DNA of 64,000 nucleotides, taken from contig NZ_CP137624.1 of the NCBI RefSeq assembly GCF_033880585.1, positions 1,418,001 to 1,482,000 of the forward strand. The letters are read 5' to 3'. The notes beneath the pieces were generated by a model. That model was not told where the DNA came from. It saw only the letters and a list, made by a program, of their open reading frames with translations, and ran no database searches. The position numbers and the translations under genes are program-made. Shown here piece by piece: positions 8,513 to 36,193 of the stretch (the first letter of the stretch is position 1; every line of letters begins with the position of its first letter). Origin of the DNA: Lysinibacillus louembei (GTDB lineage Bacteria; Bacillota; Bacilli; Bacillales_A; Planococcaceae).

Positions 8513-8983
8513 ATGTATCGTACAATAGAGGATTTTTCAAAAGATTGGCATGTCTCTTCAAAAGGAACGCTGAATGTATTCAAAGCGATTACAGATGAAA
8601 AAATGGGCCAACCCATTGTAGAAGGTCACAATACACTAGGTTGGTTAGCGTGGCATTTAGTTGGAGTAGCCGGCGCATTTGGACACTTTGCGGGCTTACA
8701 AATACCTGCTCCTGGACCAGATATGGAGATGCCTAATAATATGGCAGATATTGTTGAAGCATATGAGGCAGTTATTGACGCATACCAAAAGGAAATCGCT
8801 ACATTGTCTGATGAACAGCTGACAGAGGAGGTAGCTGCATTTGGCGGCTCCATGCAACGTGGTGCTCTGTTTAGAGTACTAATCGACCACCAAACACATC
8901 ACCGTGGTCAAATGACAGTATTATTACGTCAAGCAGGCTTAGCTGTGCCACCAGTAATGGGACCAACTGCTGAAATGAGTTAA
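8513..8983 (+). CDS. DinB-like (DUF664/YfiT-type) protein
   Basis: This is a 156-residue four-helix-bundle protein of the DinB/YfiT superfamily. The start is the ATG at 8513 (AGGGGAT upstream); an in-frame upstream extension from 8405 lacks a ribosome site. Metal-binding signatures of the family are visible: a histidine in NTLGWLAWHLVGV near the N-terminal third, and the C-terminal pair in LIDHQTHHRGQMTVLLRQAG. Members bind Ni or Zn, and many are damage-inducible or act as thiol-dependent transferases; the reaction here is unknown. It is followed after 18 bases by the Ogt gene on the same strand and is probably cotranscribed with it. Confidence 0.85.
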   Translation: MYRTIEDFSKDWHVSSKGTLNVFKAITDEKMGQPIVEGHNTLGWLAWHLVGVAGAFGHFAGLQIPAPGPDMEMPNNMADIVEAYEAVIDAYQKEIATLSDEQLTEEVAAFGGSMQRGALFRVLIDHQTHHRGQMTVLLRQAGLAVPPVMGPTAEMS

Positions 8984-19897: not shown

Positions 19898-20779
19898 ATG
19901 GGAACAGTTTTAGTATTAGGTGGTACGCGATTTTTCGGACGTAAATTAGTAGAACTACTATTAGGAGAAGGGCATCAGGTGACAATTGCAACGAGAGGGC
20001 AGTCAGGTAATCCATTTGGAGATAAGGTGGAGCATGTTGTTATTGACCGAACAAACGCAAGTGATTTACAGGCATTGATGGCAAATCGCACATTCGATAT
20101 TGTGTACGATAATATTTGCTACTCACCAAATGAAGCGAAGGCATTTTGCGATGTATTTAATGGCAAGATAGGCAAGCTTGTGTTCACTTCTACATTATCC
20201 ACATATGAAATCGATGGTGCTGTAAAAGTAGAGGAAGATTTTGACCCGTATAATTATGAAATTCGCATGGGTGATACAGCTGATTTCACGTATGGGGAAG
20301 GGAAGCGTCAGGCGGAGGCAGTGTTTTTCAAATACGCGAAGTTTCCTGTTGTAGCAGTAAGATTCCCAATCGTCATGGGTGTAGATGATTATACAGAGCG
20401 ATTACATTTTCATGTAAAGCGTGTAGCGCAGGGAGAACCGATTGGCTTTGTCAATATGGATGCGGAAATGTCATTTATTCAAGCAGAGGAAGCCGCACGC
20501 TTTTTGTTATGGGCGGGGCAAACGTCAGTGGAAGGTCCATTTAATGCAACGGCAACGGGTGCAATAACATTGCAAGCATTAATGAATTTAGTGGAAAAGG
20601 CGACAGGCAAACGAGCAAAAATTGCTCTTTTAGGGGATGATAAAATTCGCTCACCATATGCGATTCCTGCATCATGGTATATGAAAAATGATAAAGCGAC
20701 AATGGCAGGATTTGAATTTTCACAGCTTGATAGCTGGCTAGAAAACTTGGTGCAACATATTGCACAGCAGTATGCTTAA
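19898..20779 (+). CDS. NAD-dependent epimerase/dehydratase-like (SDR) protein
   Basis: This 293-residue protein has an atypical extended-SDR fold. The nucleotide-binding motif TGxxGxxG appears as GGTRFFGRKLVELLL near residues 8-22. STLSTYE stands in for the Ser/Thr catalytic position, but YxxxK is recognisable only as YGEGKRQAE (Tyr-Lys spacing of 4). Relatives are often called isoflavone-reductase-like or chloroplast stem-loop-binding-like reductases. It probably acts on a sugar nucleotide or small metabolite, or is non-catalytic. It lies four bases after the rlmA-type gene and is likely in the same transcript. Confidence 0.8.
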   Translation: MGTVLVLGGTRFFGRKLVELLLGEGHQVTIATRGQSGNPFGDKVEHVVIDRTNASDLQALMANRTFDIVYDNICYSPNEAKAFCDVFNGKIGKLVFTSTLSTYEIDGAVKVEEDFDPYNYEIRMGDTADFTYGEGKRQAEAVFFKYAKFPVVAVRFPIVMGVDDYTERLHFHVKRVAQGEPIGFVNMDAEMSFIQAEEAARFLLWAGQTSVEGPFNATATGAITLQALMNLVEKATGKRAKIALLGDDKIRSPYAIPASWYMKNDKATMAGFEFSQLDSWLENLVQHIAQQYA

Positions 20780-20840
20780 TTGAAAAAGTGCCTCTTTTTG
20801 ATTAAAATAAAAGTATTAAAATATAAGGTAGGGCAATGAT

Positions 20841-21431
20841 GTGTATAAATTAGCAGCAAATATCTGTAAAGTAATTTTAAAAATGAATGGTTCGAAGGCA
20901 AAGGTTTACGGTGCAGAAAATGTGCCTGAGGGAGGTGGCTTTGTCATCGCATGTACACATACAGGCTATATTGACATTATTAATTTAGGCTTATCCATTT
21001 ACCCACGTGAAATTCATTTCATGGCGAAAAAGCAGCTATTTGAAATGAAAGGTCTTGGTTGGCTTATCAATAATTTAAATGCTTTTCCTGTTGACCGTGA
21101 TAATCCAGGACCAAGCGTGATTAAAATTCCACGTCAGCTTATTAAAGAGGATAAAATCGTTGGTATTTTCCCAAGCGGTACTCGCTCAACCGAAAGCAAT
21201 GATTTGAAGCAGGGGGCTGTCACAATCGCACAGCTAGCAAAGACGCAAATTGTTCCTGCTGCTTATATCGGCCCACGTAGTGCAGGAGAAGTATTTAAAC
21301 GCCAAAAAGGTTATTTAATTTATGGTAAGCCATTTACAGTGGAAAGTGGCAAGGAAGCACGCGATGAGGCAACGAAGTTTTTAGAGCAGGAATTTCAGCG
21401 TTTAACAGCCGAGCTACAAGCAAAAATATAG
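20841..21431 (+). CDS. plsC: 1-acyl-sn-glycerol-3-phosphate acyltransferase
   Basis: This 196-residue membrane-associated acyltransferase converts lysophosphatidate to phosphatidate in phospholipid synthesis. The catalytic H(X4)D motif is HTGYID, in CTHTGYIDIINL. The acceptor-binding block is FPSGTRSTES (normally FPEGTRS). The intermediate block FPVDRDNPGP carries the conserved Arg. The start is GTG at 20841 after AGGTAGGG. The low-molecular-weight phosphatase gene follows after a few bases, so both are likely cotranscribed. Confidence 0.92.
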   Translation: MYKLAANICKVILKMNGSKAKVYGAENVPEGGGFVIACTHTGYIDIINLGLSIYPREIHFMAKKQLFEMKGLGWLINNLNAFPVDRDNPGPSVIKIPRQLIKEDKIVGIFPSGTRSTESNDLKQGAVTIAQLAKTQIVPAAYIGPRSAGEVFKRQKGYLIYGKPFTVESGKEARDEATKFLEQEFQRLTAELQAKI

Positions 21432-21447
21432 GATGGTGTCGAATGAG

Positions 21448-21909
21448 ATGCGTATATTATTTGTATGCTTAGGTAATATTTGCAGGTCGCCTATGGCAGA
21501 GGCTGTTATGCGTAATTTACTGGAGCAGCGTGGGTTAAGCGAGCAAATTACAGTCGATTCGGCAGGCACAAGCAGCTGGCATGTTGGTGAAGCGCCACAT
21601 AAAGGGACGCAGGCGAAGCTAGGAGAGTATGGAATTACAACAACAGGTATGCAATGCCGTCAGCTAACGAGCAGCGATTTTACGGAATTTGATTATATTG
21701 TTGGAATGGATGCGAGCAATGTGGACAATATTCGCACAATGCTTAGGCAGCCAGATGACGCAAAAATCTTCCGCTTTTTAGATTTGACATCGCATCAAAA
21801 GGATGTACCAGACCCTTGGTATACAGATGATTTTCAAGAAACATATGATCTTTGCTTAGAGGGCTGTGAGGCTTTGCTGAAGAAGGCTTTAAAAGCGCGT
21901 TCACGATAA
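21448..21909 (+). CDS. Low-molecular-weight protein tyrosine phosphatase
   Basis: This 153-residue enzyme has the P-loop C(X5)RS near its start, CLGNICRS at residues 7-14 in ILFVCLGNICRSPMAEAVM, and the general-acid Asp motif in VPDPWYTDDFQETYD. It hydrolyses phosphotyrosine or possibly phosphoarginine; bacillus relatives include YfkJ and YwlE. The start at 21448 is chosen because the in-frame ATG at 21433 sits on its own ribosome-like GG and the family begins directly at this strand. It overlaps a strong terminator at its stop codon. Confidence 0.9.
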   Translation: MRILFVCLGNICRSPMAEAVMRNLLEQRGLSEQITVDSAGTSSWHVGEAPHKGTQAKLGEYGITTTGMQCRQLTSSDFTEFDYIVGMDASNVDNIRTMLRQPDDAKIFRFLDLTSHQKDVPDPWYTDDFQETYDLCLEGCEALLKKALKARSR

Positions 21910-21929
21910 TTGTCGTGAACGCGTTTTTT
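21896..21929 (+). terminator. Rho-independent terminator overlapping the phosphatase stop codon
   Basis: CGCGTTCACGA (21896-21906) and TCGTGAACGCG (21913-21923), then TTTTTT. The stop codon TAA (21907-21909) lies in the loop, so the stem uses the last codons of the gene. Confidence 0.88.
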
Positions 21930-22032
21930 ATCAAGCTTAAAATAAAGTTCCTTATAATTTGCACGATAAAAGGAGTAGCACACTTGTAAAACGGGTACGA
22001 ATATAGAAAAAGATTAATCGGAGGGACATTGT

Positions 22033-22890
22033 ATGGATGTGAAGGGAAGACGTAAAAGTAGCAATGTGGAAGACCGCCGTGGCATGAGTGCCGGAAAAGT
22101 TGGGGGTGGCTTAGGCGGTATCGGGATTATTATTGTTATTATTTATACATTGCTAAGTGGTGGCGATGCGGGCGATGTGTTAAATACAGTGACGAAAAGC
22201 ATTACACAAAATGGACAAGTAGCTGAGGAATATACACCGACACCTGAAGAGGAGGAGTTAGCGGAATTTGTATCAGTCGTGTTAGCAGATACAGAGGATG
22301 TATGGGCGAAAGTTTTTGAAGAAAATGATATGACCTATACAAATCCAACGCTTGTGCTGTTTACGGAAAGTGTTAGCTCAGGTTGCGGGATGCAAAGCGC
22401 GGCGGTTGGACCATTTTATTGTCCAGCAGACCATAAGCTATATATTGATTTAAGTTTTTACGGTGAATTGAAAAATCGCTTTAAAGCACCTGGCGATTTT
22501 GCGATGGCATACGTTGTGGCACACGAGGTTGGGCATCATGTCCAAACATTATTAGGCACTTCGCAAAAGGTGCATGCATTAAATGGAAAAGTGACAGATG
22601 TAGAATATAATGAGCAAGTGAAGCGCCTTGAATTGCAGGCAGATTATTTAGCTGGTGTGTGGGCACATCATGTGAAAAATCAAGGTTATTTAGAGGAAGG
22701 CGATTTTGAAGAAGCATTGACTGCTGCCAATGCGATTGGTGATGATACATTGCAAATGGAGGCGCGCGGCTATGTTGTGCCAGAAAGCTTCACACATGGT
22801 ACGAGTGAGCAACGCATGCGCTGGTTTAAGAAAGGCTACCAAAATGGCACATTGCAAGGTAGCGATACGTTTAATGCAAAGGACTTGTAA
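22033..22890 (+). CDS. YpfJ-family neutral zinc metallopeptidase
   Basis: This 285-residue protein begins with a short basic segment and one membrane anchor (about residues 28-48, GGLGGIGIIIVIIYTLLSGG). The rest is the YpfJ/KPN_02809 peptidase-like domain, with the zinc motif HEVGHH (His164, Glu165, His168) in YVVAHEVGHHVQTLLG, the Cys pair CGMQSAAVGPFYCP, and the downstream Asp/Glu ligand region LELQADYLAGVWAHH. Activity and substrates are poorly known. It stands alone. Confidence 0.87.
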   Translation: MDVKGRRKSSNVEDRRGMSAGKVGGGLGGIGIIIVIIYTLLSGGDAGDVLNTVTKSITQNGQVAEEYTPTPEEEELAEFVSVVLADTEDVWAKVFEENDMTYTNPTLVLFTESVSSGCGMQSAAVGPFYCPADHKLYIDLSFYGELKNRFKAPGDFAMAYVVAHEVGHHVQTLLGTSQKVHALNGKVTDVEYNEQVKRLELQADYLAGVWAHHVKNQGYLEEGDFEEALTAANAIGDDTLQMEARGYVVPESFTHGTSEQRMRWFKKGYQNGTLQGSDTFNAKDL

Positions 22891-22983
22891 TTACCATTTT
22901 CATTTCCTGACTTTTTATGTATAATTAATAGGTTAAAATTTCATTACTACAATTTTTATATAAATGAAAGAGAGTGAATCCTA

Positions 22984-23703
22984 ATGGGGCGTAAATGGAA
23001 TAACATTAAGGACAAAAAAGCAGGGAAAGATGCAGCAAATAGCCGAGTTTATGCAAAGTTTGGTCGTGAGATTTATGTAGCTGCAAAATCTGGGGAGCCA
23101 AATCCAGAATCAAATCGCGCATTAAAAACAGTTTTAGAGCGCGCAAAAACATACTCTGTACCGAAGCATATTATTGAAAAAGCAATCGACAAAGCAAAAG
23201 GTGGCGGCGATGAGCAATTTGACGAGCTACGCTACGAGGGCTTTGGTGTAGGTGGCACAATGGTCATCGTTGATGCTTTAACAAATAACGTTAACCGTAC
23301 TGCTTCAGAAGTGCGTGCTGCATTTGGTAAAAACGGAGGAAACATGGGCGTAAGTGGTTCAGCTGCACATATGTTCCAAAGCACAGCAGTATTCGGCATT
23401 GAAGGCAAAACAGAGGATGAAGTGCTAGAAATTTTAATGGAAGCGGATTTAGATGCACGTGACATTATCGATGAAGATGGTACAATCATTATTTATGCAG
23501 AGCCAGACCAATTCCATGCAACACAGGAAGTATTCAAAGAAGCAGGCATTGAAGAATTCGCAGTAGCCGAATTATCAATGCTACCAATGACAGAAGTTGC
23601 TTTAACAGATGATGATTTAGCAAAATTCGAAAAAATGATTGATGCGTTAGAAGACTTAGAGGATGTACAACGTGTTTACCATAATGCAGATTTAGGAGAA
23701 TAA
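22984..23703 (+). CDS. YebC/PmpR-family protein, YeeI (YebC2) type
   Basis: This 239-residue protein has the YebC fold and the Bacillus YeeI-like start [20 protein letters not shown], then [39 protein letters not shown] and [20 protein letters not shown]. The family was long annotated as a DNA-binding regulator; recent work on bacterial and mitochondrial (TACO1) members indicates a ribosome-associated role in relieving stalling at proline stretches. Both views should be kept open. It is a single gene with its own terminator. Confidence 0.92.
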
Positions 23704-23715
23704 ATAGCAATATAT

Positions 23716-23753
23716 AAGACATTGTGAATTAAAAATTTCACAGTGTCTTTTTT
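23716..23753 (+). terminator. Rho-independent terminator after the YebC-type gene
   Basis: AAGACATTGTGAA and TTCACAGTGTCTT around TTAAAAATT, followed by TTTTTATA. Confidence 0.85.
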
Positions 23754-23862
23754 ATATGACAATATTGTGAAATATTTAGCTAAAAAAATTTGACTATTGT
23801 GAATTTTGTCGAAGTAAGTCACAATATTTAGTAACGTTTAAGAAAAGGAAGGGAGATTATTT

Positions 23863-25617
23863 ATGCGACGCAAGGATAGATTAGCAAGCCGCATTGTAGC
23901 AATTACTATTGCCGTTTTTATTGTCCTAATAGCAATGAATGTTTTTATGACAATTTATAGCACAGAAAAATCTGTGAAAGCCACTTTAGGAGAGCATAGT
24001 GTAACGGTAGCTCAAAATATAGCTGAGTATTTAGATATTGAGGGCTATAAGCAGTTAGTAAATGCACCAGAAGAGAGTACATTATATTGGGAATTACGCG
24101 AGCAATTAAATGATTTACGTGAAAAAAATGGTGTGTTGTATGCTTATACATTTGCTCCACCTACAAACGGTAAAGAAGGAAAGGCTGTTTTTTTAGTTGA
24201 TGGCATGCCAGCGGATGATCATGAAAATGCAGCCACTATTGGTGATGAATCTAGCGCGACATCAAATGCTGACCTTGTACAAGCACTAAAGGATGATTAT
24301 TACTATACAAATATAATTGAAAGTGAATATGGACAATTTATTTCAGGAACAATTCCCGTAAAGGATGCAAATGGTGAGGTTGTCTTTTATTTAGGAATCG
24401 ATATGGATGCTGGCTATGTTGACGTCATTAGCGGTTTAATTGCAAAGGAAGTTATTCCTACTATAGTTATTATATTTAGCGTTATTGCTATTTTAGGTCT
24501 AGTGATTCTTTACTATTATATTAATAAATCACTCCGTCCTTTAAAATCATTGAAGGAGTCCGCAACATACTTAGCTGAGGGCAATATTAAAGAGGCTAAT
24601 CATGTGGTTTCTAACATCGATATGGCAAATGGCAATGAAATTTCTTTATTTGCAAAGGATTTTACAAATGCATTAAAACAGCTTACAAAGACATTTGACA
24701 CGATTCATGTAAAGGTAAACAGCTTGGAGCAGGCAGTTGAAGATATTAATTCGACGGCACACCATGTAAATAATTCGAATAATGCCATCGCTGCAAGTGT
24801 CACGCAAATTGCAGAGGGTAGTGGTAAGCAGCAAGTTAGCAATGATGAAGTTATGCAAGCAATGAGCGAAATGACAATTGGCATTCAAAGATTAGCTGAT
24901 TCAACAAGCGATATTGCCGAATCCTCGAATGATATGACAGAGTTAGTTGAGAAAAGCACGTCGAACTCAAAGCAAGTGGTTCAGCAAATTCAAAGTGTGG
25001 AAACATCGGTTATTCGCACATCCGAGCAAGTGCGTGAGATGGGTGAACGGTTCCATTCGATTGAAGAAATGATTAATGTCATTACAAGCATCGCAGATCA
25101 AACAAATTTATTAGCATTAAATGCTGCAATTGAAGCAGCAAGAGCAGGTGAAGCTGGTAAAGGCTTTGCTGTAGTAGCGGATGAGGTGCGCAAGCTAGCA
25201 GAAATGTCACGCACATCGGCGGATGATATTCACAGTCATTTACAAAGCTTCTTAGAAATTGCAGAGCGCGCATTAAGCGAAATGGCTGTTAGCACACAGG
25301 ATGTTAAAGAAGGAAGTTTAGCTGTAACTGCAATCGGTGAAAACTTAGAAAATATTTTACAGGCTGTTTTGCGAGTAAATAATAATATTCAAGAAAACTC
25401 GGCAGTGATTGAGCAAATGTCAGCAAGCTCTGAGGAAATATTAGCGTCTGCTGAAGACATGAGCCAGCTCGTTAACAATACGACAGCGCAAACACAGGAA
25501 GTCGCAAAATCAATCGATGTTCAAGTTGATATGGTAGAAAAATTAAATGAAGTAGTAGAAAAGCTTGATACTACTTCAAAAGATGTTGTAAATGAGATTG
25601 AGAAATTTAAATTATAA
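23863..25617 (+). CDS. Methyl-accepting chemotaxis protein (first of two)
   Basis: This 584-residue chemoreceptor has membrane helix 1 at residues 13-33 ([18 protein letters not shown]) and an extracellular sensing domain of about 165 residues, probably a Cache-like fold. Helix 2 is near 200-222 ([18 protein letters not shown]), followed by a HAMP linker ([20 protein letters not shown]) and a cytoplasmic signalling domain. The signalling hairpin tip reads [20 protein letters not shown] then [19 protein letters not shown], the universal CheA/CheW-binding region. It should feed the CheA kinase; its ligand is unknown. It is followed by a GC-rich terminator and then the lanthipeptide cluster. Confidence 0.95.
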
Positions 25618-25696
25618 TTAGGATGGCTGGAAATAGGCTAGTGTATTTTGAAACATAGTTACTTTATAATACTAGATTTAAGTTTTTAAATAAATA

Positions 25697-25742
25697 AACC
25701 GTCCCCTCTGTGATTGTATATCGCAGAGGGGGCGGTTTTGTT
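25697..25742 (+). terminator. Rho-independent terminator after the first chemoreceptor gene
   Basis: AACCGTCCCCTCTGTG and CGCAGAGGGGGCGGTT form a GC-rich stem followed by TTGTT. It isolates the lanthipeptide cluster from upstream transcription. The following stretch 25743-25920 is very AT-rich; I see no further precursor ORF or RNA in it. Confidence 0.85.
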
Positions 25743-25920
25743 AATTTACCATTTAGAAAATAATTTTTTTCTCTGAAAACCAAAACTAAAATGATTTAAG
25801 TATATGCTTTAGAAAAGATATCGTAAAAAGTGAAGGGAATTTGCCTATTTGCAAAATATATACCATTTTATATATGCTTAAACCCATAATTATCTATTTA
25901 TTCAAAAATTACAGAAATGT

Positions 25921-25949
25921 TTGAATTTATAGGTTTTATGATATATAAT
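25921..25949 (+). promoter_or_regulatory. Sigma-A promoter of the lanthipeptide cluster
   Basis: TTGAAT (25921-25926), exactly 17 bases, TATAAT (25944-25949). The TSS is expected near 25956, about 24 bases before the precursor start. No regulator gene is part of the cluster. Confidence 0.75.
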
Positions 25950-25979
25950 GGAAATATATTCAGGTAGGAGGTGAATCAT

Positions 25980-26102
25980 ATGAAGTTACGTGAACAATTA
26001 GAGCGTTTAGAAGTTTCAGATACTAAACAAAAAGTTGCAGCTAACTCAGGTGTTAGCAATAGCTGCACAAGCGGTGGCTGTCACACTATCGTAATCAGTT
26101 AA
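25980..26102 (+). CDS. Class III lanthipeptide precursor peptide (LanA)
   Basis: This 40-residue ORF with a strong ribosome site (TAGGAGGTGA) was too short for automatic calling. The N-terminal half is a charged, helical leader with the class III-type hydrophobic/acidic box (LREQLERLEVSDTKQKVAAN). The C-terminal part is a Ser/Thr/Cys-rich core SGVSNSCTSGGCHTIVIS. It contains two overlapping S-x2-S-x2-C arrangements: Ser23-Ser26-Cys29 and Ser28-Ser31-Cys34, the kind of pattern used to form labionin or lanthionine rings. Only two cysteines are present, so at most two ring systems form. The LanKC synthetase gene follows after 107 bases containing a perfect stem-loop. No leader protease gene is adjacent, which is usual for class III clusters. 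Product structure and activity are unknown. Confidence 0.88.
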   Translation: MKLREQLERLEVSDTKQKVAANSGVSNSCTSGGCHTIVIS

Positions 26103-26133
26103 ATATTCATGTGTTAATCACTTTGTTACATCC

Positions 26134-26179
26134 ATAAATGAACGATTTTTATTATTTTTAATAAAAATCGTTCATTTAT
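26134..26179 (+). terminator. 21-bp perfect stem-loop between lanA and lanKC (partial terminator / mRNA stabiliser)
   Basis: ATAAATGAACGATTTTTATTA (26134-26154) is followed by TTTT and its exact reverse complement (26159-26179), then TTACTTTTT. Hairpins at this place in RiPP operons usually let abundant precursor mRNA form while limited read-through supplies the synthetase. This role is inferred. Confidence 0.75.
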
Positions 26180-26209
26180 TTACTTTTTAAGACGAGGAGG
26201 TAAGTTCTT

Positions 26210-28909
26210 ATGAAAGAATTTATGCATGAATTCGAAACAAAATACCTAAAAGTAGATATAAATAACTTCTATTTCAAAGCTAATTTAAAAAATGAGAAAC
26301 ATATGACCATTAGTGATGCGTTTCCTTTTAGATATACTATATTTGATAATGCACAGCATCTTCAGGGGTGGAAAATACATCTTTCTCCCACATTGGATCA
26401 ATACCCTTTAGTATTAAGCCAAGTAACTAAAATTCTTCAAAATAAAAGAATTTCTTTTAAATATGTTGCGGATATGAGGGCATTCACATTTTTATCAAGT
26501 AAAAACACAAGCATTAGCCAATTCGGTAAATACATAACTATTTACCCTTCGGATAAAGCAGAATTTATAGAAATAATTGAGAGAATATATTCAGAAATTA
26601 GCTGTGAAACTGGGGTGCAGGTTCCTTCAGATCAAAGATATAAAAATAGTAGCTTTATTTATTATAGATACGGAGCTGCTTTTCCTAAATATGAAATTTC
26701 TAATGAAAATGAGAGAAACTATAATATAATGAATGGGTTTGCGGAACTAAAGGAAGATGTTAGAAAAGGGTATTTCACTCTTCCTTCAGGCATTGAAGAT
26801 CCTTTTGAGAATAGCACATGGAGCGATGAAATTATTCAAGAAGTTCCAGTAAAAGGACACCTAACTAATAACACTTTTTCAGTCAATAAAATATTGAGAC
26901 ACTGTGCTACTGGAAATGTTTATGAAGGATATAATGATGTAAATAATGAAGCGGTTATTATAAAGGAAGGGCGATTGGGAGGAATTCCTTCTATGGAAGA
27001 GCCTTTGTATAGAGCTCAAAAAGCTCGAATGAACGAATTTCAATTCTTCAACGAAAATAGCGATAAATATAATATGTTATTTCCTAAAGCGATAGATTAT
27101 TTTTACGATGAAGATTCTGTATTTATCATAATGGAGAAACTTGAAGGTAAATCTCTAAAAGAATTTATTACTGAAAGTCCCATTTTAAAACCTGAAAAAT
27201 CGGAAGAGGAAAAGGCGGATTTCATAAAATCCCTTAAGGATATTTTTAATCAGATTTTTGATTTCATATTACAGTTACATTCAAATGATCTTGTTTTCAA
27301 TGACATTTCTGATGACAATTTTTTTATAACAGCTGAAAATAAAGTTGCTTTAATTGATGCAGAAGGAATTTCTAATATTCAAGATAACAAATGGTATGGT
27401 ATGGGCACAGATAGATTTATGTATAGAATGCCAAAGGGTATTAAAAGTGAGGCTAAAGATTTATACATGTTTTCACAGCTCATTTTATACTCTGTAATAG
27501 GGAGAAATAAAGGTTATTCCTTTGATGAAAAGTATTACGAAAAAGAATATAGTGCAATCTTGTACAAACTTCCTATAGGCACACGAGGTTTATTTAATGC
27601 TGGCATGATGTTAATGAATCATGTATTAAAAGGGAATTTAACTAGTGATGTTAGTGCAGAATTTAAAGAACTTTTATTCACTGATGAAGAAACATCCCCT
27701 TTAAATGAAAATAGCTTACAGCCAAAAGATCTTATTGCACGTATTGGCAATATTGAAAAAATTTTATTAAGATATTACTCTAATTTATTTGCAGATAATC
27801 CAAACAACATATTTAAGTTTGCTACTTCTGACTATCATCACAATAGATTATCTTTAGTATATGGATTGCCAGGTGTTTCTTTATGCTTGCGGGATTTCAA
27901 CATCATTGATGATCAGCAGTTGCTAGACGTAGCCCATATACTACAAGAGTATGCTTTAAAAAACGAAAATATAAGTAGACTAAATGATGGTTTAGTTTTT
28001 GGTAAAGCTGGGTTTACACTGTATCTCTCACAGGCTGGAGTGCCTATGGAAAATAATCATTTCTTTTTTAATTTGATAAAAGCTTTAAGTAAATACAATT
28101 TTGTGAATTTAGATTTTGCTAATGGCTTATCTGGCATTTATGTGAGCCTAAAGCTAATTAATCAATCTGGCAATTATCCAGATCTAAGTAAATGGATTAC
28201 TATAGTCAAACAACACTTAGGAAGTACAACGTGGCCGATTAGTAAATATCAAGGATTAGAGTATGGCAACACAGGTTTAGCATTTTCGTTAATATTTGCA
28301 GAGGAAAATATTGATAATTGGGATATTGCATACAAAAATATTGGGGAAGATTTACAGACAGTTAAAGATGACTCAATTTTCTCAGGCTTGTCGTATAGTG
28401 TTCAGGAGTGGCCAAATATTAGATCTCCGTATCTTTTTTCAGGTAGTGCAGGATCAATTTTAGTTTTACTTCACTATTATCACAATACAGGAGAGCCAGA
28501 TTGGGCTTTTTTAAAGGAATTAGTTTTATCTTTAAAATCACCATTCTTCTACAATTATGGAGTGACATATGGAACTACTGGATTAGCACTAGTTATTATG
28601 GGAATTTTATTACTTCCTAATATCCCTCAGGACTTTAAAGAAGAATTAGAGGATATGCTTACTCACAAAATAAACTATGTAGCAACACATTTTCAAAGTA
28701 ATAATGGCGCAATAGGGTTTTTAGGAGATAAGCAATCATTTTATGCAGATGATTTTGGAAATGGGGGCTTAGGCATTCTTAAAGTCTTCAAATTATACAA
28801 AGAATATGTAGCAGATAAATTGACATGGGATAATTTAAGTTTCAGCTCATTACCGATACTTCCATGTAAACAAGAAAATCTCGTAAATAACAAGGAGTAC
28901 GTTTTATAA
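26210..28909 (+). CDS. Class III lanthipeptide synthetase (LanKC)
   Basis: This 899-residue three-domain enzyme dehydrates Ser/Thr of the precursor and forms the rings. Residues 1-215 are the phospho-Ser/Thr lyase domain. Residues about 220-480 are a Ser/Thr-kinase-like domain: catalytic Lys252 in AVIIKEGR, Glu276 in helix C, the catalytic loop NDISDDN with Asp365 and Asn370, and the metal-binding Asp383 in LIDAEG. Residues about 520-880 are a LanC-like barrel with Gly-rich turns (FANGLSGIY, YGNTGLAF, FSGSAGSI, YGTTGLAL, GNGGLGIL). The zinc-ligating Cys/Cys/His of LanC and LanL enzymes are absent from these turns, which places it in class III rather than class IV. It lies between precursor and exporter genes. 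AGA and ATA codons are unusually frequent compared with neighbours, suggesting transfer. Confidence 0.93.
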   Translation: MKEFMHEFETKYLKVDINNFYFKANLKNEKHMTISDAFPFRYTIFDNAQHLQGWKIHLSPTLDQYPLVLSQVTKILQNKRISFKYVADMRAFTFLSSKNTSISQFGKYITIYPSDKAEFIEIIERIYSEISCETGVQVPSDQRYKNSSFIYYRYGAAFPKYEISNENERNYNIMNGFAELKEDVRKGYFTLPSGIEDPFENSTWSDEIIQEVPVKGHLTNNTFSVNKILRHCATGNVYEGYNDVNNEAVIIKEGRLGGIPSMEEPLYRAQKARMNEFQFFNENSDKYNMLFPKAIDYFYDEDSVFIIMEKLEGKSLKEFITESPILKPEKSEEEKADFIKSLKDIFNQIFDFILQLHSNDLVFNDISDDNFFITAENKVALIDAEGISNIQDNKWYGMGTDRFMYRMPKGIKSEAKDLYMFSQLILYSVIGRNKGYSFDEKYYEKEYSAILYKLPIGTRGLFNAGMMLMNHVLKGNLTSDVSAEFKELLFTDEETSPLNENSLQPKDLIARIGNIEKILLRYYSNLFADNPNNIFKFATSDYHHNRLSLVYGLPGVSLCLRDFNIIDDQQLLDVAHILQEYALKNENISRLNDGLVFGKAGFTLYLSQAGVPMENNHFFFNLIKALSKYNFVNLDFANGLSGIYVSLKLINQSGNYPDLSKWITIVKQHLGSTTWPISKYQGLEYGNTGLAFSLIFAEENIDNWDIAYKNIGEDLQTVKDDSIFSGLSYSVQEWPNIRSPYLFSGSAGSILVLLHYYHNTGEPDWAFLKELVLSLKSPFFYNYGVTYGTTGLALVIMGILLLPNIPQDFKEELEDMLTHKINYVATHFQSNNGAIGFLGDKQSFYADDFGNGGLGILKVFKLYKEYVADKLTWDNLSFSSLPILPCKQENLVNNKEYVL

Positions 28910-28954
28910 AATTAGTACTCGCTATGGAGGCAAATATTTACGAGGAGGAAAGAA

Positions 28955-30532
28955 ATGATTAAATTGGTTATCAACTTATTTCAAGGAAAGTGGAAACTCA
29001 CATTTATCAGCTTTCTCATGTTAATCGTACTCTCTTTAGATGGGATTGTTCTTCCATATTTTTTAGGTAAATTTACAGATGTGATGACCAATCAAGAATA
29101 TAGTCAAATACCCTTATTACTGTTTATATGGTTTATATTGTGGCTGCTAATTATAGCAGCCCAATTATCGAATGCCTATTTCTTTGGTAAAGTGAGAAGC
29201 AAGATAAATATTGATCTAAAAGATAAAATGTTTAAAAAGTCATATGATGCTGGCAATAGCAAAGTTCCAGCTAGCCAGTACATATCGACTATTACTTCGG
29301 ATATAAAGCAGATTGAACAAGATTTTATCAATAACACAATGAATTTTGTCTATAGTATATTACAAGGTGGTATTACGTTAGTATTTTTATTGTTTATCAA
29401 CTGGAAAGTTGGCATTATCTTTGTGTTACTTGGAACCCTGCCTACCTTTATTCCTAAGCTGACATCACGTTGGCTTCAAAAAGGAACAGAGAATTGGCAG
29501 GAAGCAAATCAACAGTATATAGGGCAACTTGAAGATGGCTTGAATGCAAGGAATTTAGTGAAACGTTATGGTGCTCAAAATTTCATATTTAAACAATTGC
29601 TAGTGGGAGTAACAACAGAACAAAATAAATACTTTTCTATGAACTTTAAAAGGTCCACATCTGCATTCTATGTTGGTGCACTATATGTCGTCTCGGCAAT
29701 GGGGTCATTATCATATGGTGCATGGTCCGTTATCAATGGGGAAATATCTGCTGGTATGCTCATCACCATTTATATGGCTGCTGATCGAGTAGTAACACCA
29801 CTTATTTCCTTGGCGAATATTTATAATGCGATGACAGCTTCGGAACCTTTACTTAGAAAAGTGCTAAATGAAGAACCAAGTCATACACAACCAACAGAGC
29901 CAGTGTTTACTAAAAACAATGATTATTTAATATCTTTGGAAAATGTGAATATTGGATTTAAAGAGAACAAGCCAATTTTAGAAAGTATTAATCTTCAAGT
30001 CGAACAAGGTGATCGTATTTTAATAGAAGGGGCTTCGGGATCTGGTAAATCAACATTGTTAAAAACGATGATGAATGAGCAGGATGTATTGTCAGGGGAA
30101 ATTCAATATAGTAGCAACTTACAAGGAAATTTAACAGAAGCATTTGCAGTTGTTGAGCAACAGCCGTTTGTTTTCCGTAATACATTAAAATACAATTTAA
30201 TAATTGGCCAAGAAATAGCTGATGAAAAATTGTATGAGGTTTTGCACCAAGTAGGTTTGAATCGCCTAGCGAATGAAGAAGGTTTACAAATCCAACTAGG
30301 TAGTGATGCTCACCAGCTATCTGGCGGGGAGTTGAAGCGATTAGAGGTAGCACGTGCAATGCTATCTAATAAGGAGATTCTTGTTGTAGATGAGGCACTT
30401 TCAGGGTTGGACGGGGAGAGTGCGGACCGTTTGAATCAGCTAATTACAAGCTATCCTGGAACTATTATCAATATTGAACATAGAATAGATGAAGAAATAC
30501 GAGAGCGATTTAACAAAAAACTGAAGCTTTAG
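28955..30532 (+). CDS. ABC exporter of the lanthipeptide cluster (LanT-like)
   Basis: This 525-residue half-transporter fuses a six-helix membrane domain (about residues 1-290, starting LTFISFLMLIVLSLDGIVLP) to an ATPase domain with Walker A GASGSGKST (359-367), signature LSGGELKRLEVARAM (from 455) and Walker B ILVVDEALSG (Asp479, Glu480). There is no N-terminal C39 peptidase, so it does not cleave the leader. The usual switch histidine is found in NIEHRID. It starts 45 bases after lanKC behind GAGGAGGAAAG and most likely exports the modified peptide, possibly also giving self-protection. It ends in a terminator that closes the cluster. Confidence 0.88.
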   Translation: MIKLVINLFQGKWKLTFISFLMLIVLSLDGIVLPYFLGKFTDVMTNQEYSQIPLLLFIWFILWLLIIAAQLSNAYFFGKVRSKINIDLKDKMFKKSYDAGNSKVPASQYISTITSDIKQIEQDFINNTMNFVYSILQGGITLVFLLFINWKVGIIFVLLGTLPTFIPKLTSRWLQKGTENWQEANQQYIGQLEDGLNARNLVKRYGAQNFIFKQLLVGVTTEQNKYFSMNFKRSTSAFYVGALYVVSAMGSLSYGAWSVINGEISAGMLITIYMAADRVVTPLISLANIYNAMTASEPLLRKVLNEEPSHTQPTEPVFTKNNDYLISLENVNIGFKENKPILESINLQVEQGDRILIEGASGSGKSTLLKTMMNEQDVLSGEIQYSSNLQGNLTEAFAVVEQQPFVFRNTLKYNLIIGQEIADEKLYEVLHQVGLNRLANEEGLQIQLGSDAHQLSGGELKRLEVARAMLSNKEILVVDEALSGLDGESADRLNQLITSYPGTIINIEHRIDEEIRERFNKKLKL

Positions 30533-30548
30533 AGAATAGATTTAAAAT

Positions 30549-30592
30549 TAACTAGCGCCTACCACTTAGATGGTATGTGCTAGTTGTTTTTT
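30549..30592 (+). terminator. Rho-independent terminator of the lanthipeptide cluster
   Basis: AACTAGCGCCTACCA and TGGTATGTGCTAGTT around CTTAGA, then GTTTTTT. Confidence 0.85.
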
Positions 30593-30702
30593 ACTTACGA
30601 GAGCATTTTGTAATAATTATTAGGTTTTCTTCCTCGCAGTCCCTATTTATGTAATAATATTAGTTATATGTTATTGGAATAGAAATATAGGAGATGGTGA
30701 AA

Positions 30703-32463
30703 ATGACACGTTTTTTAAAATCTATACAAGGTAAGTTGCTTGTCTTCTCATTTTTAATTTTTTTTATACCAAGTCTTATTATTAGTGTTATCAGTTATAT
30801 GACGGCAAAGCAAGGAATGGACGAGCTAGGAGAAACGGTTATTAAAAATAGCGTAGAAACAGCTTTGCAATTAATTGAATCGACCAATTACGAAGTGGAA
30901 CAAGGGGTATTAACGCTTGAGGAAGCGAAGGAACGTGTGAAAACACAGCTGATTGGTGCAATGGATGCAGAAGGAAAGCGTTTACTTACATATCCAGCAA
31001 ACCTAGGAGAAAACGGCTACATTTATATTTTAGGCCATGACGGAACATTGCTGGGGCACCCTACACGCGAAGGGGAAAGCTTATGGGAAAGTAAGGATAG
31101 CTCAGGAAATTATTTTATTAGGGAAGTAAAAGATAAAGCATTAGCAGGTGGGGGATTTACCCATTATGATTTTGAGCTGCCAGGACAAACGGTTGTCGCA
31201 CCAAAATTGATTTATTCAAAGTTAGACCCGCATTGGGATTGGATTGTAGCCTCAGGCACATATATGCAAGATTTCAATGAACCGGTTAACGACTTAGTTA
31301 AAGTTATTATAGTAACTCTTATTATTTCAGCTATAGCAGGTGGTATTGTAGCAGTGATCTTCTCTCGCTATTTAGCCATTCCATTAGTACGCTTGTCGAG
31401 ACGAGTGAGTCAAGTAGCAAAAGGAAATTTGATGGTAACGATTGACCAGCTTAATCGACAGGATGAGGTTGGGACTTTGAACGAGGGCTTTAATAATATG
31501 GTTATTCAATTAAAGGAGCTTATTTCAAATGTGGAGCATTCAATCTCCGAAATTCAAACGACCTCTAGCAATTTATCTGCGGTTGCAGAAGAAACGACGG
31601 CATTAGGAGAAACGATTGTTCAGTCAGTAGGAGAGGTTACAACAGGTGCTGCACAACAGGCAATAGACACTGAGCAAGCAAGTCGTTCGACAACTGAGTT
31701 TGCTACTCAAATTGAAGTATTACATGCGAAAAACGAAACGATGCTAACAGCATCTGGTGAGATGCGTAGTTCCAATGAGCGAGGGGTAGCGAATTTAGAA
31801 CAACTACAGCAAAGCTCTGAGGAATCAAATGAGTTAATGATACAAATGCAAAAAGTATTTCATAATTTAATGCAAAAGTTAGATGAAATTGAAGGAATCG
31901 TTAGTACAATTAATGAAATTTCTGACCAAACAAATTTATTAGCATTGAATGCCTCAATTGAAGCGGCGAGAGCCGGGGAGCATGGAAAAGGTTTTGCGGT
32001 TGTAGCAGAGGAAGTGCGCAAATTAGCTGATCAAACACAGCAAGCAACAGGAGAAGTAAGAGGTACGCTACGTGGAATTGAAGAAGAAACAAGCCGAGTA
32101 ACAAATGAAATGGAAAAAGCAGCAGTAATTGTCCAAAAGCAACGACAGTCTGTGATGACAACGCAAGGCTCATTTGAAGCAATTGAAAAATCAGTCGAGC
32201 ACATTACAGCGATTATTTATGATATATCGAAGAGCGTCAATCAATTGAATGCCTCGAAAAATGAAATGTTAGTGTCGATGGAGAGCATCGCCAATATTAG
32301 TGAGAAAAACGCAACTGTAACGAAGGAAGTCACTGCATCGGTAGAAGAGCAGCAACATGCAGTGGAGGTTGTTACAAATTCCGCAAATGAGTTGACGAAT
32401 GAAATTACGAGATTACAAGAGGCGATTATAAGTGCCTGGCACACAAACAATTCTGACAATTGA
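30703..32463 (+). CDS. Methyl-accepting chemotaxis protein with sCache-type sensor (second of two)
   Basis: This 586-residue chemoreceptor starts at the ATG at 30703, nine bases after AGGAG; the in-frame ATG at 30694 abuts that site. Membrane helix 1 is near residues 10-33 ([20 protein letters not shown]). The extracellular domain carries single-Cache hallmarks ([20 protein letters not shown] and [14 protein letters not shown]). Helix 2 ([20 protein letters not shown]) leads into HAMP ([20 protein letters not shown]) and the signalling domain, with the tip [20 protein letters not shown] then [19 protein letters not shown]. sCache receptors often sense small organic acids or amino acids. It is not closely similar to the other chemoreceptor outside the signalling hairpin. 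Confidence 0.95.
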
Positions 32464-32537
32464 CGACAATTCAAGATATTATTCTTCGGAATAGTTGCAA
32501 AATAGCGAATAGTAGTAAATAATTAAAAGCGAATTGA

Positions 32538-32558
32538 ATGTTCTTGATTTAAGAACAT
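32538..32558. repeat. Short inverted repeat upstream of the M3 peptidase gene
   Basis: ATGTTCTT (32538-32545) and AAGAACAT (32551-32558) around GATTT. It could be a weak hairpin or a regulator site; no T tract follows and no strong promoter is apparent next to it. Confidence 0.3.
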
Positions 32559-32610
32559 AGCTTTAGTTAAGGCGTCATTGATTCAAACACAATTTGAAGG
32601 TGGGGACATC

Positions 32611-34311
32611 ATGGGAGTAACATTTAAAGATTACGAGTATAAGCGTCCAAATTTAGATGAAATGAAAGTGGCTGTACGTGCGTTGATTGAGGAGTTCAAA
32701 AATGCACAAAGCGTGGAGGAACAAAGCGCAGTTATTGAAAAAATTAATGAACATCGCAATAATTTCTCAACGCAAGCGAATTTAGTTTATATTCGCGCAT
32801 CAATTGATACGAACGATACTTTTTATCAAGCAGAGCGTGATTATTTAGATGAGGCAACACCACAGGCGGAAGAAATCGTATTTGAATATTATCAAGAGCT
32901 TGTGAAATCACCCTTCCGTGCACAGCTTGAAGAAAAATGGGGAACACAGCTTTTTGCATTAGCTGAAAATCAAATTAAAGGCTTTTCACCAGAAGTGATT
33001 GGACTAATGCAACAGCAAAATAAGCTAGTTTCAGAATATAGTAAGCTTGTAGCATCTGCACAAATTGAATTTGATGGTAAAACATTAACCTTGGCACAGT
33101 TAGGACCATACGGTGAATCATTAGATCGCAATGTTCGTAAAGAGGCACGTGAGGCAAGTGTTAATTTCTATGCACAGAACGGTGAAAAATTCGATGAAAT
33201 TTACGATAAACTAGTAAAGCTACGTCATGAAATTGCGACAAAGCTAGGCTTTAAAAATTATGTAGAATTAGGCTATGTGAATATGAATCGCATTGATTAC
33301 AATGCCGAGATGGTGGAAAAGTTCCGTAACCAAGTGCGCGACTTTATCGTGCCGGTCGCAACAGAGCTTTATAAACGTCAAGCGAAGCGTATTGGCGTTG
33401 AAGACTTTAAATATTATGATGAGGGCTTGAATTTCTTAACAGGTAATGCAAAGCCACAAGGTACTCCTGAATGGATTATTGAAAATGGTAAGAAAATGTA
33501 TGAGGAGCTGTCAAAGGAAACAGGCGAGTTCTTCAACTTTATGATTGACCATGAGCTAATGGATTTAGTAGCGAAAACTGGAAAAGAAAGTGGCGGCTAT
33601 TGTACGTTTATCGATGACTACAATTCACCATTTATTTTCTCGAACTTCAATGGTACATCAGGCGATATCGATGTATTAACACATGAGGCTGGTCATGCAT
33701 TCCAAGTATACTCTAGCCGCAATATCGGTATTCCAGAGTATCTATGGCCAACATATGAATCAGCAGAAATTCATTCAATGAGTATGGAATTCTTTACATG
33801 GCCATGGATGGAGCTATTCTTTAAAGAGCAAACAGATAAATATAAATTCTCTCATCTAAGCAGCTCATTATTATTTTTACCATATGGTGTTGCAGTAGAT
33901 GAATTCCAGCATGTCGTTTATGCAAACCCAGAGATGACACCTGCTGAGCGTAAAGCTGCTTGGAAGGAAATCGAAGCGAAATACTTACCACATCGTGATT
34001 TTGACGGCAATGCCTATTTAGAGGCTGGTGGCTTCTGGCAACGTCAAGGGCATATTTATGCAAGCCCATTCTATTATATCGATTACACATTAGCGCAAAT
34101 TTGTGCATTCCAATTCTGGAAACGTTCACGTGAGGACTTTGCCAGTGCGTGGAAGGATTATGTACATTTATGTGGCTTAGGTGGCTCGCAATCATTTACA
34201 AATTTAGTACGTGAAGCAGGCTTAATCTCGCCATTTGAAAGTGGCTGTGTGGAATCGGTAATCGGCACAATTCAAGACTACTTAAACTCAATTGACGATA
34301 CACAATTATAA
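32611..34311 (+). CDS. M3-family oligoendopeptidase
   Basis: This 566-residue zinc peptidase of the M3 (PepF/thimet) clan cuts short peptides in the cytosol. The start is the ATG at 32611 (AGGTGGGGA upstream), matching the family length; an in-frame extension back to 32578 is unlikely. The zinc motif is HEAGHAF (His358, Glu359, His362) with the third ligand in YESAEIHSMSMEFF. The upstream block GGYCTFIDDYNSPFIFSNFN and the C-terminal FYYIDYTLAQICAFQFW are typical of the TIGR02289-like branch. It is a single gene with a strong terminator. Confidence 0.93.
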   Translation: MGVTFKDYEYKRPNLDEMKVAVRALIEEFKNAQSVEEQSAVIEKINEHRNNFSTQANLVYIRASIDTNDTFYQAERDYLDEATPQAEEIVFEYYQELVKSPFRAQLEEKWGTQLFALAENQIKGFSPEVIGLMQQQNKLVSEYSKLVASAQIEFDGKTLTLAQLGPYGESLDRNVRKEAREASVNFYAQNGEKFDEIYDKLVKLRHEIATKLGFKNYVELGYVNMNRIDYNAEMVEKFRNQVRDFIVPVATELYKRQAKRIGVEDFKYYDEGLNFLTGNAKPQGTPEWIIENGKKMYEELSKETGEFFNFMIDHELMDLVAKTGKESGGYCTFIDDYNSPFIFSNFNGTSGDIDVLTHEAGHAFQVYSSRNIGIPEYLWPTYESAEIHSMSMEFFTWPWMELFFKEQTDKYKFSHLSSSLLFLPYGVAVDEFQHVVYANPEMTPAERKAAWKEIEAKYLPHRDFDGNAYLEAGGFWQRQGHIYASPFYYIDYTLAQICAFQFWKRSREDFASAWKDYVHLCGLGGSQSFTNLVREAGLISPFESGCVESVIGTIQDYLNSIDDTQL

Positions 34312-34313
34312 TC

Positions 34314-34358
34314 AAAAGGATTGCTAGGGCATAATCTTATGCATTAGCAATCCTTTTT
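34314..34358 (+). terminator. Rho-independent terminator after the M3 peptidase gene
   Basis: AAAAGGATTGCTA and TTAGCAATCCTTTTT with a second inner stem GGGCATAA/TTATGC. Confidence 0.88.
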
Positions 34359-34432
34359 CGCCTTCAAAGATTGTATTTTTTAAGCCTATATGCGATTATT
34401 GCTAGTAGATAGATGATGATCGAGGTGGAAAT

Positions 34433-35512
34433 ATGATAAAGAAATTATGGTTTCAAGTAGCGATTGGCATGCTATTATCGCTATTAATTGTGAAGTACTT
34501 CATGGAAATTCGCACCATCTTTAAGCCGTTTGTCATTATTTTGAAAACGGTATTCATCCCATTATTATTAGGTGGGGTACTTTACTATGTTACGGAGCCG
34601 ATACAGCGTTTTCTCGAAAAGCGTAAAGTCCCGAGGTGGGGAAGTATCATTATTATTATTGTCCTGCTAGCAAGTGCGCTTACAGGCTTTTTATTCTCAA
34701 TAGGTAATCCGATTGCGAAAGAGGTTAATAAATTAGTCGATAATGCCCCTTACATTGGTGAGAAAATGCAGGAAGCAACAGAGTTCATAAAGGATCATCA
34801 AGACCATTTGCCACCGCAAGTGGATAAGTTTATTGATTCTGTTTCAAACTCTGTTCAAGAAATAGCCGTAACAGGTAGCAAAATGATTGTAACCTTTGTT
34901 AGTGGTGCAGTATCTGCCACATTTACATTAATTTTAGTGCCATTCTTCTTTATCTTTATGTTGAAGGATCACGAAAAATTTGCTCCACGCATTTATGGCT
35001 TATTTACAGGGGAGCGCCGCTCATGGATTAAGAAAACATTAAAGGATATCGATGATGCACTAAGCAGCTATGTACAGGGACAAGTATTGATTAGCTTTTT
35101 ACTTGCGTTGATGATGTTTATCGGTTATTTAATTATTGATTTAGAATATGCGTTATTATTATCGATATTGGCATTCTTTATGAATATGATACCATTTATT
35201 GGTCCATGGGTATCATTGATTCCAGCATTGATTGTAGCGCTTATTCAAGACCCAATTTTAGTGATTTGGGTAGCGGTAATTACGCTTGCAGCCCAGCAAA
35301 TTGAAAGTAATTTTATTACACCAAACATTATGGGGAAATCGCTGGATATTCATCCATTAACGGTTATTACAATTGTTTTGGCTGCAGGAAATATTGCAGG
35401 ATTTATCGGAATTTTAATTGCAATTCCAACATATGCGGTCATTAAAGCGATTGTTAAAAATATTTACGAAGAGCGCAAAAAAATTAAAGAAGCAGCGACG
35501 AAAACATTATAA
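34433..35512 (+). CDS. AI-2E (UPF0118/PerM) family transporter
   Basis: This 359-residue membrane protein has about seven to eight helices and a soluble central region (residues about 90-145). Family signatures are ILKTVFIPLLLGGVLYYVTE, the loop KDIDDALSSYVQGQVLISFL and NMIPFIGPWVSLIPALIVAL, then QQIESNFITPNIMGKSLDIH. Members transport or efflux diverse solutes: quorum-sensing AI-2, Na+/H+ exchange, indole acetate. The substrate here is not inferable. It starts a four-gene run (to 36812) with small gaps and one strand, likely an operon. Confidence 0.92.
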   Translation: MIKKLWFQVAIGMLLSLLIVKYFMEIRTIFKPFVIILKTVFIPLLLGGVLYYVTEPIQRFLEKRKVPRWGSIIIIIVLLASALTGFLFSIGNPIAKEVNKLVDNAPYIGEKMQEATEFIKDHQDHLPPQVDKFIDSVSNSVQEIAVTGSKMIVTFVSGAVSATFTLILVPFFFIFMLKDHEKFAPRIYGLFTGERRSWIKKTLKDIDDALSSYVQGQVLISFLLALMMFIGYLIIDLEYALLLSILAFFMNMIPFIGPWVSLIPALIVALIQDPILVIWVAVITLAAQQIESNFITPNIMGKSLDIHPLTVITIVLAAGNIAGFIGILIAIPTYAVIKAIVKNIYEERKKIKEAATKTL

Positions 35513-35523
35513 AGGAGCATTTT

Positions 35524-35985
35524 ATGCTAACATTTGAACAAAAACAGGCGATTATTGAAACATTCCCCGAATTAACGAAAAAGGAAGTTTCATTAAAACG
35601 CTTAAATTATCACTACGAAAATAGTCTATATGAAAAAACGATTGTTGTGGAAAAATTACATCCTAATGGCAATGGCTTCGTCTTCGTTGGCGATTTATTG
35701 CAATATGAGGCAGAGGCAAATGACAAAGGTCTCGTCAATATTCGCGATTATGATGAATCAGCATTGCGTGCCATTATTGCAGCAGCTATTAGCTATTTAT
35801 CCGAAGATGTGGAGGAAGAGCCAATTATAGAAATTTGGCGCTCACGTGAAGGGGCTATGCTAGAGCTAATTTATGAAAATCGCTCGTGGGCAATTTACCA
35901 TCAAGATAATTTAGAGGAAGCCTTTGGCACGCGAGAGGCAGCTATAGAATATTTACGAGAAGAAGGATTTAGACCTTCGAAATAA
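35524..35985 (+). CDS. Conserved-looking hypothetical protein
   Basis: This 153-residue acidic, soluble protein has mixed alpha/beta composition (IVVEKLHPNGNGFVFVGDLL, then SALRAIIAAAISYLSEDVEE and SWAIYHQDNLEEAFGTREAA). No signal peptide, membrane span or known motif was recognised. It starts 12 bases after the AI-2E-type gene with AAAGGAGC and is followed 14 bases later by a small membrane protein gene, so it probably belongs to the same operon. Codon use agrees with the neighbours. Confidence 0.65.
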   Translation: MLTFEQKQAIIETFPELTKKEVSLKRLNYHYENSLYEKTIVVEKLHPNGNGFVFVGDLLQYEAEANDKGLVNIRDYDESALRAIIAAAISYLSEDVEEEPIIEIWRSREGAMLELIYENRSWAIYHQDNLEEAFGTREAAIEYLREEGFRPSK

Positions 35986-35998
35986 GGAGAGACCAGAA

Positions 35999-36193
35999 AT
36001 GGATGGAAAGAAATTTGCATTAACCATCGTTAGCATTGTTGTTGGTGTATCGCTATTAATCGTTATCGCGATGTTATTATTTTTTAAATATTATGAGCCA
36101 AAAACGCCAGAGGGCGAGACAGTAGAGCTACATGAATCAAGTTTATTGACACCTGAGCAAGCACCGATTATAATTGTCTTGAATTCGAGATAA
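35999..36193 (+). CDS. Small single-span membrane protein
   Basis: This 64-residue ORF has AAGGAGAG upstream. Residues 6-30 form one hydrophobic helix (FALTIVSIVVGVSLLIVIAM), followed by a short Pro/Glu-rich tail (PKTPEGETVELHESSLLTPE). It resembles small membrane anchors or peptide regulators. It lies between the hypothetical protein and the esterase in the same run. Function unknown. Confidence 0.6.
   Translation: MDGKKFALTIVSIVVGVSLLIVIAMLLFFKYYEPKTPEGETVELHESSLLTPEQAPIIIVLNSR

Follow-up and report, generated by a model that had tools for sequence, protein, structure and literature searches.

Between two chemoreceptor genes of the window (the whole 64-kb stretch of DNA analysed), each with an MCPsignal domain (Pfam), lies what is almost certainly a compact and intact three-gene operon for a class III lanthipeptide (Table 1). 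The explanation that best fits the evidence combines this operon with a product carrying a labionin and a second thioether ring, transcriptional attenuation, export, maturation by M16B peptidases and a bacteriocin-like role, and we give it a probability of roughly 0.7. We found no publication on this branch of clusters in the main texts of the open-access literature searched.

Operon layout and the LanKC synthetase

The promoter, precursor, hairpin, LanKC, exporter and terminators listed in the initial annotation were all recovered in place. Inspection of the ORFs between the two chemoreceptor genes also agreed with it in finding no regulator, dedicated immunity gene or protease there. The three reading frames are open in five genomes: G000 (the window's own), G002 (a MAG of the same species with a near-identical locus), G004 ('Bacillus ndiopicus', same genus), and G192 and G241 (another genus of the same family). 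The Pfam matches of the exporter do not include a peptidase domain, and its best NCBIfam match, GggC (210 bits against a cut-off of 750), is judged to reflect general ABC kinship. The hairpin 3' of lanT was found by folding and is missing from the list of the consensus terminator scan. Rfam gave no match at gathering score in positions 25600-30720. A defence system was considered and rejected, as the PADLOC matches cover only the kinase and ABC-ATPase stretches and were read as generic similarity.

Table 1. Features of the lanthipeptide locus (window positions)
Feature	Positions	Strand	Basis
Intrinsic terminator of the upstream chemoreceptor gene	25696..25738	+	19-pair stem, T-rich tail
Sigma-70 type promoter, TTGAAT-N17-TATAAT	25921..25949	+	10/12 consensus positions; 17-nt spacing in 5/5 loci
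Ribosome-binding site of the precursor gene, AGGAGG	25966..25971	+	Sequence; 8 nt upstream of ATG
lanA, 40-aa precursor MKLREQLERLEVSDTKQKVAANSGVSNSCTSGGCHTIVIS, probable core from ~Ser23	25980..26102	+	ORF, alignment, profile search, codon comparison
Hairpin between lanA and lanKC, a perfect 21-bp stem with a T-rich tail; probably an attenuator (read-through terminator)	26134..26179	+	
lanKC, class III lanthionine synthetase, 899 aa (lyase, kinase, zinc-free cyclase)	26210..28909	+	Domains, residues, model
lanT, ABC exporter, 525 aa, ABC_membrane + ABC_tran	28955..30532	+	Pfam, NCBIfam matches
Terminator-like hairpin 3' of lanT	~30549..30592	+	Folding z = -5.6

LanKC has Pfam matches to RamC_N, Pkinase and LANC_like. 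Against NCBIfam it scores 332 bits with the class III model NF038151 (E 8e-99, below the curated cut-off of 575) and a lower 224 bits with the class IV LanL model NF038150. In LanC proteins the zinc site lies in W-C-x-G and C-H-G contexts. The enzyme has four Cys (132, 232, 559, 886), none of them in a zinc-ligand context (the ligands of NisC are named in PMC10604976), which places it in class III rather than class IV. All eight lyase residues listed for ThurKC in section 9 of PMC10604976 (K65, H67, K94, K108, K117, D152, R163, R191) are identical in the alignment. Among 13 further ThurKC positions mapped in the kinase and leader sites, eight are identical, including Lys252, Asp365, Asp383, Glu385 and Thr400, and five are not (R275, E279, W302, N366, F383); in the printed PDB chain, too, position 366 has a residue other than Asn. 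A multiple alignment offers Glu276 as the candidate helix-C Glu, and across its 14 sequences Glu276, Asp365, Asn370 and Asp383 are invariant and Lys252 is nearly so. The kinase motif is DAE in place of DFE, as in five of the 14 sequences, all from this clade; the remaining nine have DFE (three), DLE (five) or DMD (one).

An AlphaFold2 model built from the 14 sequences has a mean pLDDT of 73.3 and a pTM of 0.73. Among the 50 Foldseek rows listed for it, the first five are ThurKC and the next 12 are SalKC, CuvL and PneKC (E 1e-32 to 5e-14). Domain packing is poorly fixed, since these 17 rows have whole-chain TM of 0.50-0.59 and rmsd above 10. Together the domains, the lyase residues and the ThurKC-like model bear out the class III assignment first proposed.

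Among the closest known systems is that of andalusicin (AncKC/ThurKC, Bacillus thuringiensis), with which the system shares the three-domain LanKC fold, the zinc-free cyclase, all eight lyase residues and ABC export; the andalusicin leader protease is an M16B enzyme outside the cluster, as proposed here, and the andalusicin product contains labionin (PMC10604976, PMC11557216). Unlike that of andalusicin, the system described here has DAE rather than DFE, no methyltransferase, another leader motif and a further Cys beyond the labionin motif, and its LanKC is only 19-20% identical to ThurKC (Foldseek rows).

The precursor, its expression and the predicted rings

The precursor, described as unannotated at the outset, escapes the family models: no Pfam or NCBIfam model matched it, including NF038154 (lanthi_III_a) and NF038159 (lanthi_III_b). 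It shares with these families a short precursor beside lanKC and a labionin-type core; unlike their members, the window precursor, one of the four copies in G004 and the G241 precursor (locus L013) match neither model. The NCBIfam class III precursor models do match all four precursors tested from other Bacilli loci (L017, L058). Each lanKC examined in the clade has homologous precursor genes upstream of it: G000, G002, G192 and G241 have a single copy each, and G004 has a tandem array of four (L003, 3231-3890) that differ from one another at positions 22, 24, 31 and 40. One of these copies matched a streptosactin model of NCBIfam at 13 bits against a cut-off of 50, which we judged to be chance. 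A search of open-access text matched the core or leader letters in no lanthipeptide paper by title.

Promoter-like sites are common in this sequence (35 found, 31.1 expected in shuffles), and upstream of the precursor TTGA-- and TA(T/C)AAT with 17-nt spacing recur in all five loci. The hairpin after the precursor also folds in all five, with z of -7.0 (the window), -6.6, -4.5, -2.6 and -2.9, and 0, 0, 0, 2 and 0 of 200 shuffles folding as well in the same order; for L013 the ten bases directly before lanKC were omitted. In G192 and G241 the hairpin has the same place and a different sequence, which argues that structure rather than letters is kept. Codon changes between the window precursor and each G004 copy are 9-11 silent and 4-7 replacement. 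Against G241 the window has 14 silent and 11 replacement changes. The G004 copies against G241 have 10-11 silent and 12-13 replacement, and these latter counts alone do not show constraint. The recurrent promoter and hairpin, together with mostly silent changes within the genus, argue that the precursor is real. By the ordinary reading of such a hairpin, partial termination would stop some transcripts after lanA and so raise precursor mRNA over enzyme mRNA.

We aligned the precursors of eight genes from five genomes, those of the window and G002 being identical. The invariant positions include Ser23, Ser26, Asn27, Ser28, Cys29, Thr30, Gly32 and Cys34, so that the labionin-type core Ser23/Ser26/Cys29 stands next to lanKC in 8/8 genes. 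Position 31 is Ser in three and Gly in five, position 35 His in six and Asn in two, and position 36 Thr in seven and Ser in one. The leader reads L-E-R-L-E in 8/8 and lacks the V-x-x-L-Q / LELQ motif of class III leaders (PMC11251773), of which it is a conservative variant. If the core begins at Ser23, its calculated [M+H]+ before modification is 1708.76, less 18.01 for each water lost.

The initial annotation had noted two overlapping S-x2-S-x2-C patterns in the core, Ser23/Ser26/Cys29 and Ser28/Ser31/Cys34. Both are present as letters, and two interlocked labionins would follow if both were used; the patterns occur together in the window, G002 and one of the four G004 copies, and LanIII-43, a class III product of Bacillus cereus, reportedly has two labionins (PMC9576775). 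Overlapping labionins are nevertheless quite improbable: Ser31 is Gly in five of the eight genes, and the second motif encloses Cys29, although the regular expression published for labionins, S[^C]{2}S[^C]{2,5}C, allows no internal Cys (PMC11251773).

The spacing of the first pattern, initially thought unusual, is not so, because the labionin motif is defined as S-x2-S-x2-5-C (PMC8960859 section 9; PMC11251773) and both x2 and x3 occur at other Bacilli LanKC loci: the two L012 precursors have SLLSIVC (x2), and the L015 precursor and the first one of L058 have x3. At L017 (4082-5225; the locus ends at 5388) a Bacilli LanKC is followed downstream by a row of at least six precursor genes. Those listed, taken as small plus-strand ORFs with a labionin-type motif or an LQ leader, have S-x2-S-x2-C at or near the C-terminus in 6/6, as STISNNC in four. 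For andalusicin, a protected labionin fragment of 755 Da (PMC10604976 section 11) and a difference of 683.84 Da (PMC11557216) are given. Calculated from the L017 letters, Ala plus STISNNC less 3 H2O has [M+H]+ 755.31, and STISNNC alone is 683.27 neutral; by this mass match, rather than by the letters of the andalusicin precursor, the andalusicin labionin may itself be S-x2-S-x2-C.

Since Cys29 lies within the second motif and Ser31 is missing from that motif in 5/8 genes, we favour a labionin from Ser23/Ser26/Cys29 with a separate thioether from Thr30 (or Ser31) to Cys34. Under the bridging rule, by which a Cys joins a Ser/Thr that precedes it by more than two residues (PMC11251773), the partner of Cys34 would be Ser31 here and Thr30 where residue 31 is Gly; Thr30 is favoured because it is invariant. 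A labionin followed by a second ring on Cys34, most likely from Thr30, stands at about even odds. Nocardiopeptins, likened here by title only, reportedly combine labionin and lanthionine in one peptide. Paenithopeptins differ in having a disulfide-bridged ring around the labionin; the precursor here has two Cys only. More tentatively, and with less than an even chance, the clade would form a distinct class III subfamily within this family of Bacillota, with an LQ-less leader and an S-x2-S-x2-C labionin joined at Cys29-Thr30 to a five-residue T-x3-C methyllanthionine ring; Ser28, inside the labionin, could then remain as Dha or form an interlocked bond with Cys34. Such a compact two-ring core was not found described in the papers considered.

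Simple lanthionines alone, from Ser23 or Ser26 to Cys29 and from Thr30/Ser31 to Cys34, are an unlikely outcome. The class III S-x2-S-x2-5-C motif can yield labionin or lanthionine (PMC11251773, PMC7268733), and the low identity of this LanKC to ThurKC leaves room for a different product; on the other hand Ser23 and Ser26 are invariant in 8/8, as expected if both are used, and the Bacillus and Paenibacillus class III products considered carry labionin (including those of PMC8960859, PMC10604976 and PMC9576775). Noursin (LanKC-Hbt) shares with this system a class III LanKC, a labionin (predicted here) and a core His near Thr (PMC10206099), and enzymes making a histidine-to-butyrine crosslink beside the labionin do exist (PMC10206099). 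His35 lies near Thr30/Thr36 in six of the eight precursors and would be the residue used. We consider such a crosslink hardly probable: judged by conservation, His35 gives way to Asn in 2/8 while the core is otherwise conserved, the known enzymes are reported from the actinobacteria Streptomyces and Saccharothrix, and the noursin core has one Cys (PMC10206099), whereas here a second is invariant. The preferred reading remains the labionin with a second thioether on Cys34.

Distribution and history of the cluster

Five of 261 order genomes (G000, G002, G004, G192, G241) have a LanKC above 60% identity, and eight, the window's own included, match at E <= 1e-20. Among 398 evenly drawn class genomes five match at E <= 1e-30, again with the own included, which alone belongs to this clade; since the other four clade genomes are not among the matches of this sample, the clade may have further members elsewhere. 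A precursor profile search likewise led to accepted genes in 5/261 order genomes. Matches in five further order genomes were rejected (E 0.0017-0.0093 over 14-30 positions, three of the five with stops). By leader and enzyme, the cluster belongs to a divergent subfamily found in 5/261 order genomes. Separately, a different contig of G004 encodes a further LanKC, only distantly similar (28% identity; L008, 1303-3933).

Composition had first been taken as a sign of horizontal entry. The AT-richness itself holds for LanKC, with GC 0.310 against a mean of 0.382 (sd 0.028) and GC3 0.239 against 0.307 (sd 0.044) for 53 other long ORFs, a baseline of mechanical ORFs of the 64-kb window rather than of the whole genome. 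It does not hold for the exporter (GC/GC3 0.353/0.306) or the precursor (0.390/0.293), neither of which is unusual. Recent horizontal entry is not supported, since the same site carries the cluster in a second species and an exporter remnant in a third.

In G000, G002 and G004 the same pair of orthologous chemoreceptor genes flanks the cluster. In G001 and G003, of the same genus, these genes are adjacent and the cluster is absent, and in these two of the five genus genomes the LanKC search gave nothing beyond weak matches of kinase type (E 7e-4 and 9e-4). Cluster loss has left a trace in G003: its 351-nt gap (L039, 10537-10888) matches the exporter gene over 36 columns on the expected strand, with two mismatches and one gap (one extra base), scoring 55 against a best of 39 among 500 dinucleotide shuffles. 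This 36-nt remnant maps to what we take to be the Walker B coding region of the exporter. The G001 gap contained no exporter-gene remnant (133 of 200 shuffles were as good). The unrooted tree of seven flanking proteins, ((G000,G002),G003,(G004,G001)), has 100% bootstrap. On the simplest reading the cluster was present in the ancestor of the genus and was lost in G003 and probably in G001. G192 and G241 carry it without any tested flanking gene and share flanks of their own, which indicates that it moved between loci at some time.

Between G000 and G004, dS is 0.52 for lanKC and 0.63 for lanT against 0.71-1.31 for seven flanking genes, so exchange at the site after the species split is possible. 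These low values, the low GC of LanKC and the absence of the cluster from two of the five genus genomes, one with a remnant, could also point to a recently acquired or decaying, silent cluster. We regard this as very unlikely, given the three open frames in five genomes, dN/dS of 0.11 (lanKC) and 0.08 (lanT) between G000 and G004, and the promoter and hairpin kept in 5/5 loci.

Mobile-element origins were considered and rejected. LanKC had no match in 50,697 phage records and no pattern match in viral_contigs; its matches in 71 plasmid records are all below 60% identity (best listed 22-31%). The precursor gave no match in the plasmid records, and of 68 pattern stretches in viral_contigs none was confirmed. 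A tRNA insertion site was also rejected, there being no tRNA within 20000-36000.

The loci differ in some further details. That of G002 (L041, ~8376-8620) has ~250 extra bases between mcpA and the terminator compared with the window, which may be an inserted repeat element. The gap between lanKC and lanT is several hundred bases in G192 and G241 (L042, L043), and in G192 a short-repeat ORF, TTDSRAVTTASQVF-like, follows lanT (L042, 12371-12691, reverse complement).

Proposed maturation, role and significance

In the pathway that we propose, LanKC would bind the leader helix, LERLE replacing the usual V-x-x-LQ, phosphorylate core Ser/Thr and eliminate phosphate to give Dha/Dhb. Zinc-free cyclisation would then form the labionin from Ser23/Ser26/Cys29 and afterwards a second thioether onto Cys34, likeliest from Thr30 (methyllanthionine, T-x3-C), though in some lineages Ser31 could take its place. 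The ABC exporter would secrete the peptide and may confer self-protection, and a genome-encoded M16B peptidase pair would cut off the leader near VAAN/S.

That a leader protease is missing had been observed correctly for the cluster itself; it is usual for class III, where most clusters have none and unclustered M16B pairs are described (PMC8960859 section 9), and a pair of this kind stands elsewhere in the genome. G000 has three M16_C matches, two of them adjacent at L044, where a 439-aa protein with HFLEH (HXXEH) and a 426-aa protein without it resemble the described pair. All seven genomes searched, with or without the cluster, have three M16_C matches each; the pair is weak evidence, because cluster-free relatives have such pairs too. 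Bacinapeptin and paenithopeptin (Pre_24; bcn, ptt) share with this system a class III cluster in Bacillota, one S-x2-S-x2-5-C and an unclustered M16B pair (PMC8960859), and differ in having a methyltransferase in the cluster and, for ptt, a further M16B pair inside it. PttP1/P2 cleave at Q-A-(A/V)-(D/E); the stretch here reads x-V-A-A-N/Y, a difference that counts against the proposed maturation.

The product is most likely a narrow-spectrum bacteriocin-like peptide, a role to which we give an evenly balanced chance. The picture of class III lanthipeptides is unchanged by this cluster, an ordinary kind of system that is divergent and apparently uncharacterised, from a branch for which we found no characterised member in the papers considered. 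Similar clusters may be overlooked, because the precursor escapes the family models and the enzyme scores under the cut-off. With three genes in 4.6 kb, the cluster offers a small LanKC/precursor pair that is easy to refactor, and its natural core variants, with four tandem copies in one relative, would probe how a zinc-free LanKC acts on a second Cys soon after a labionin.
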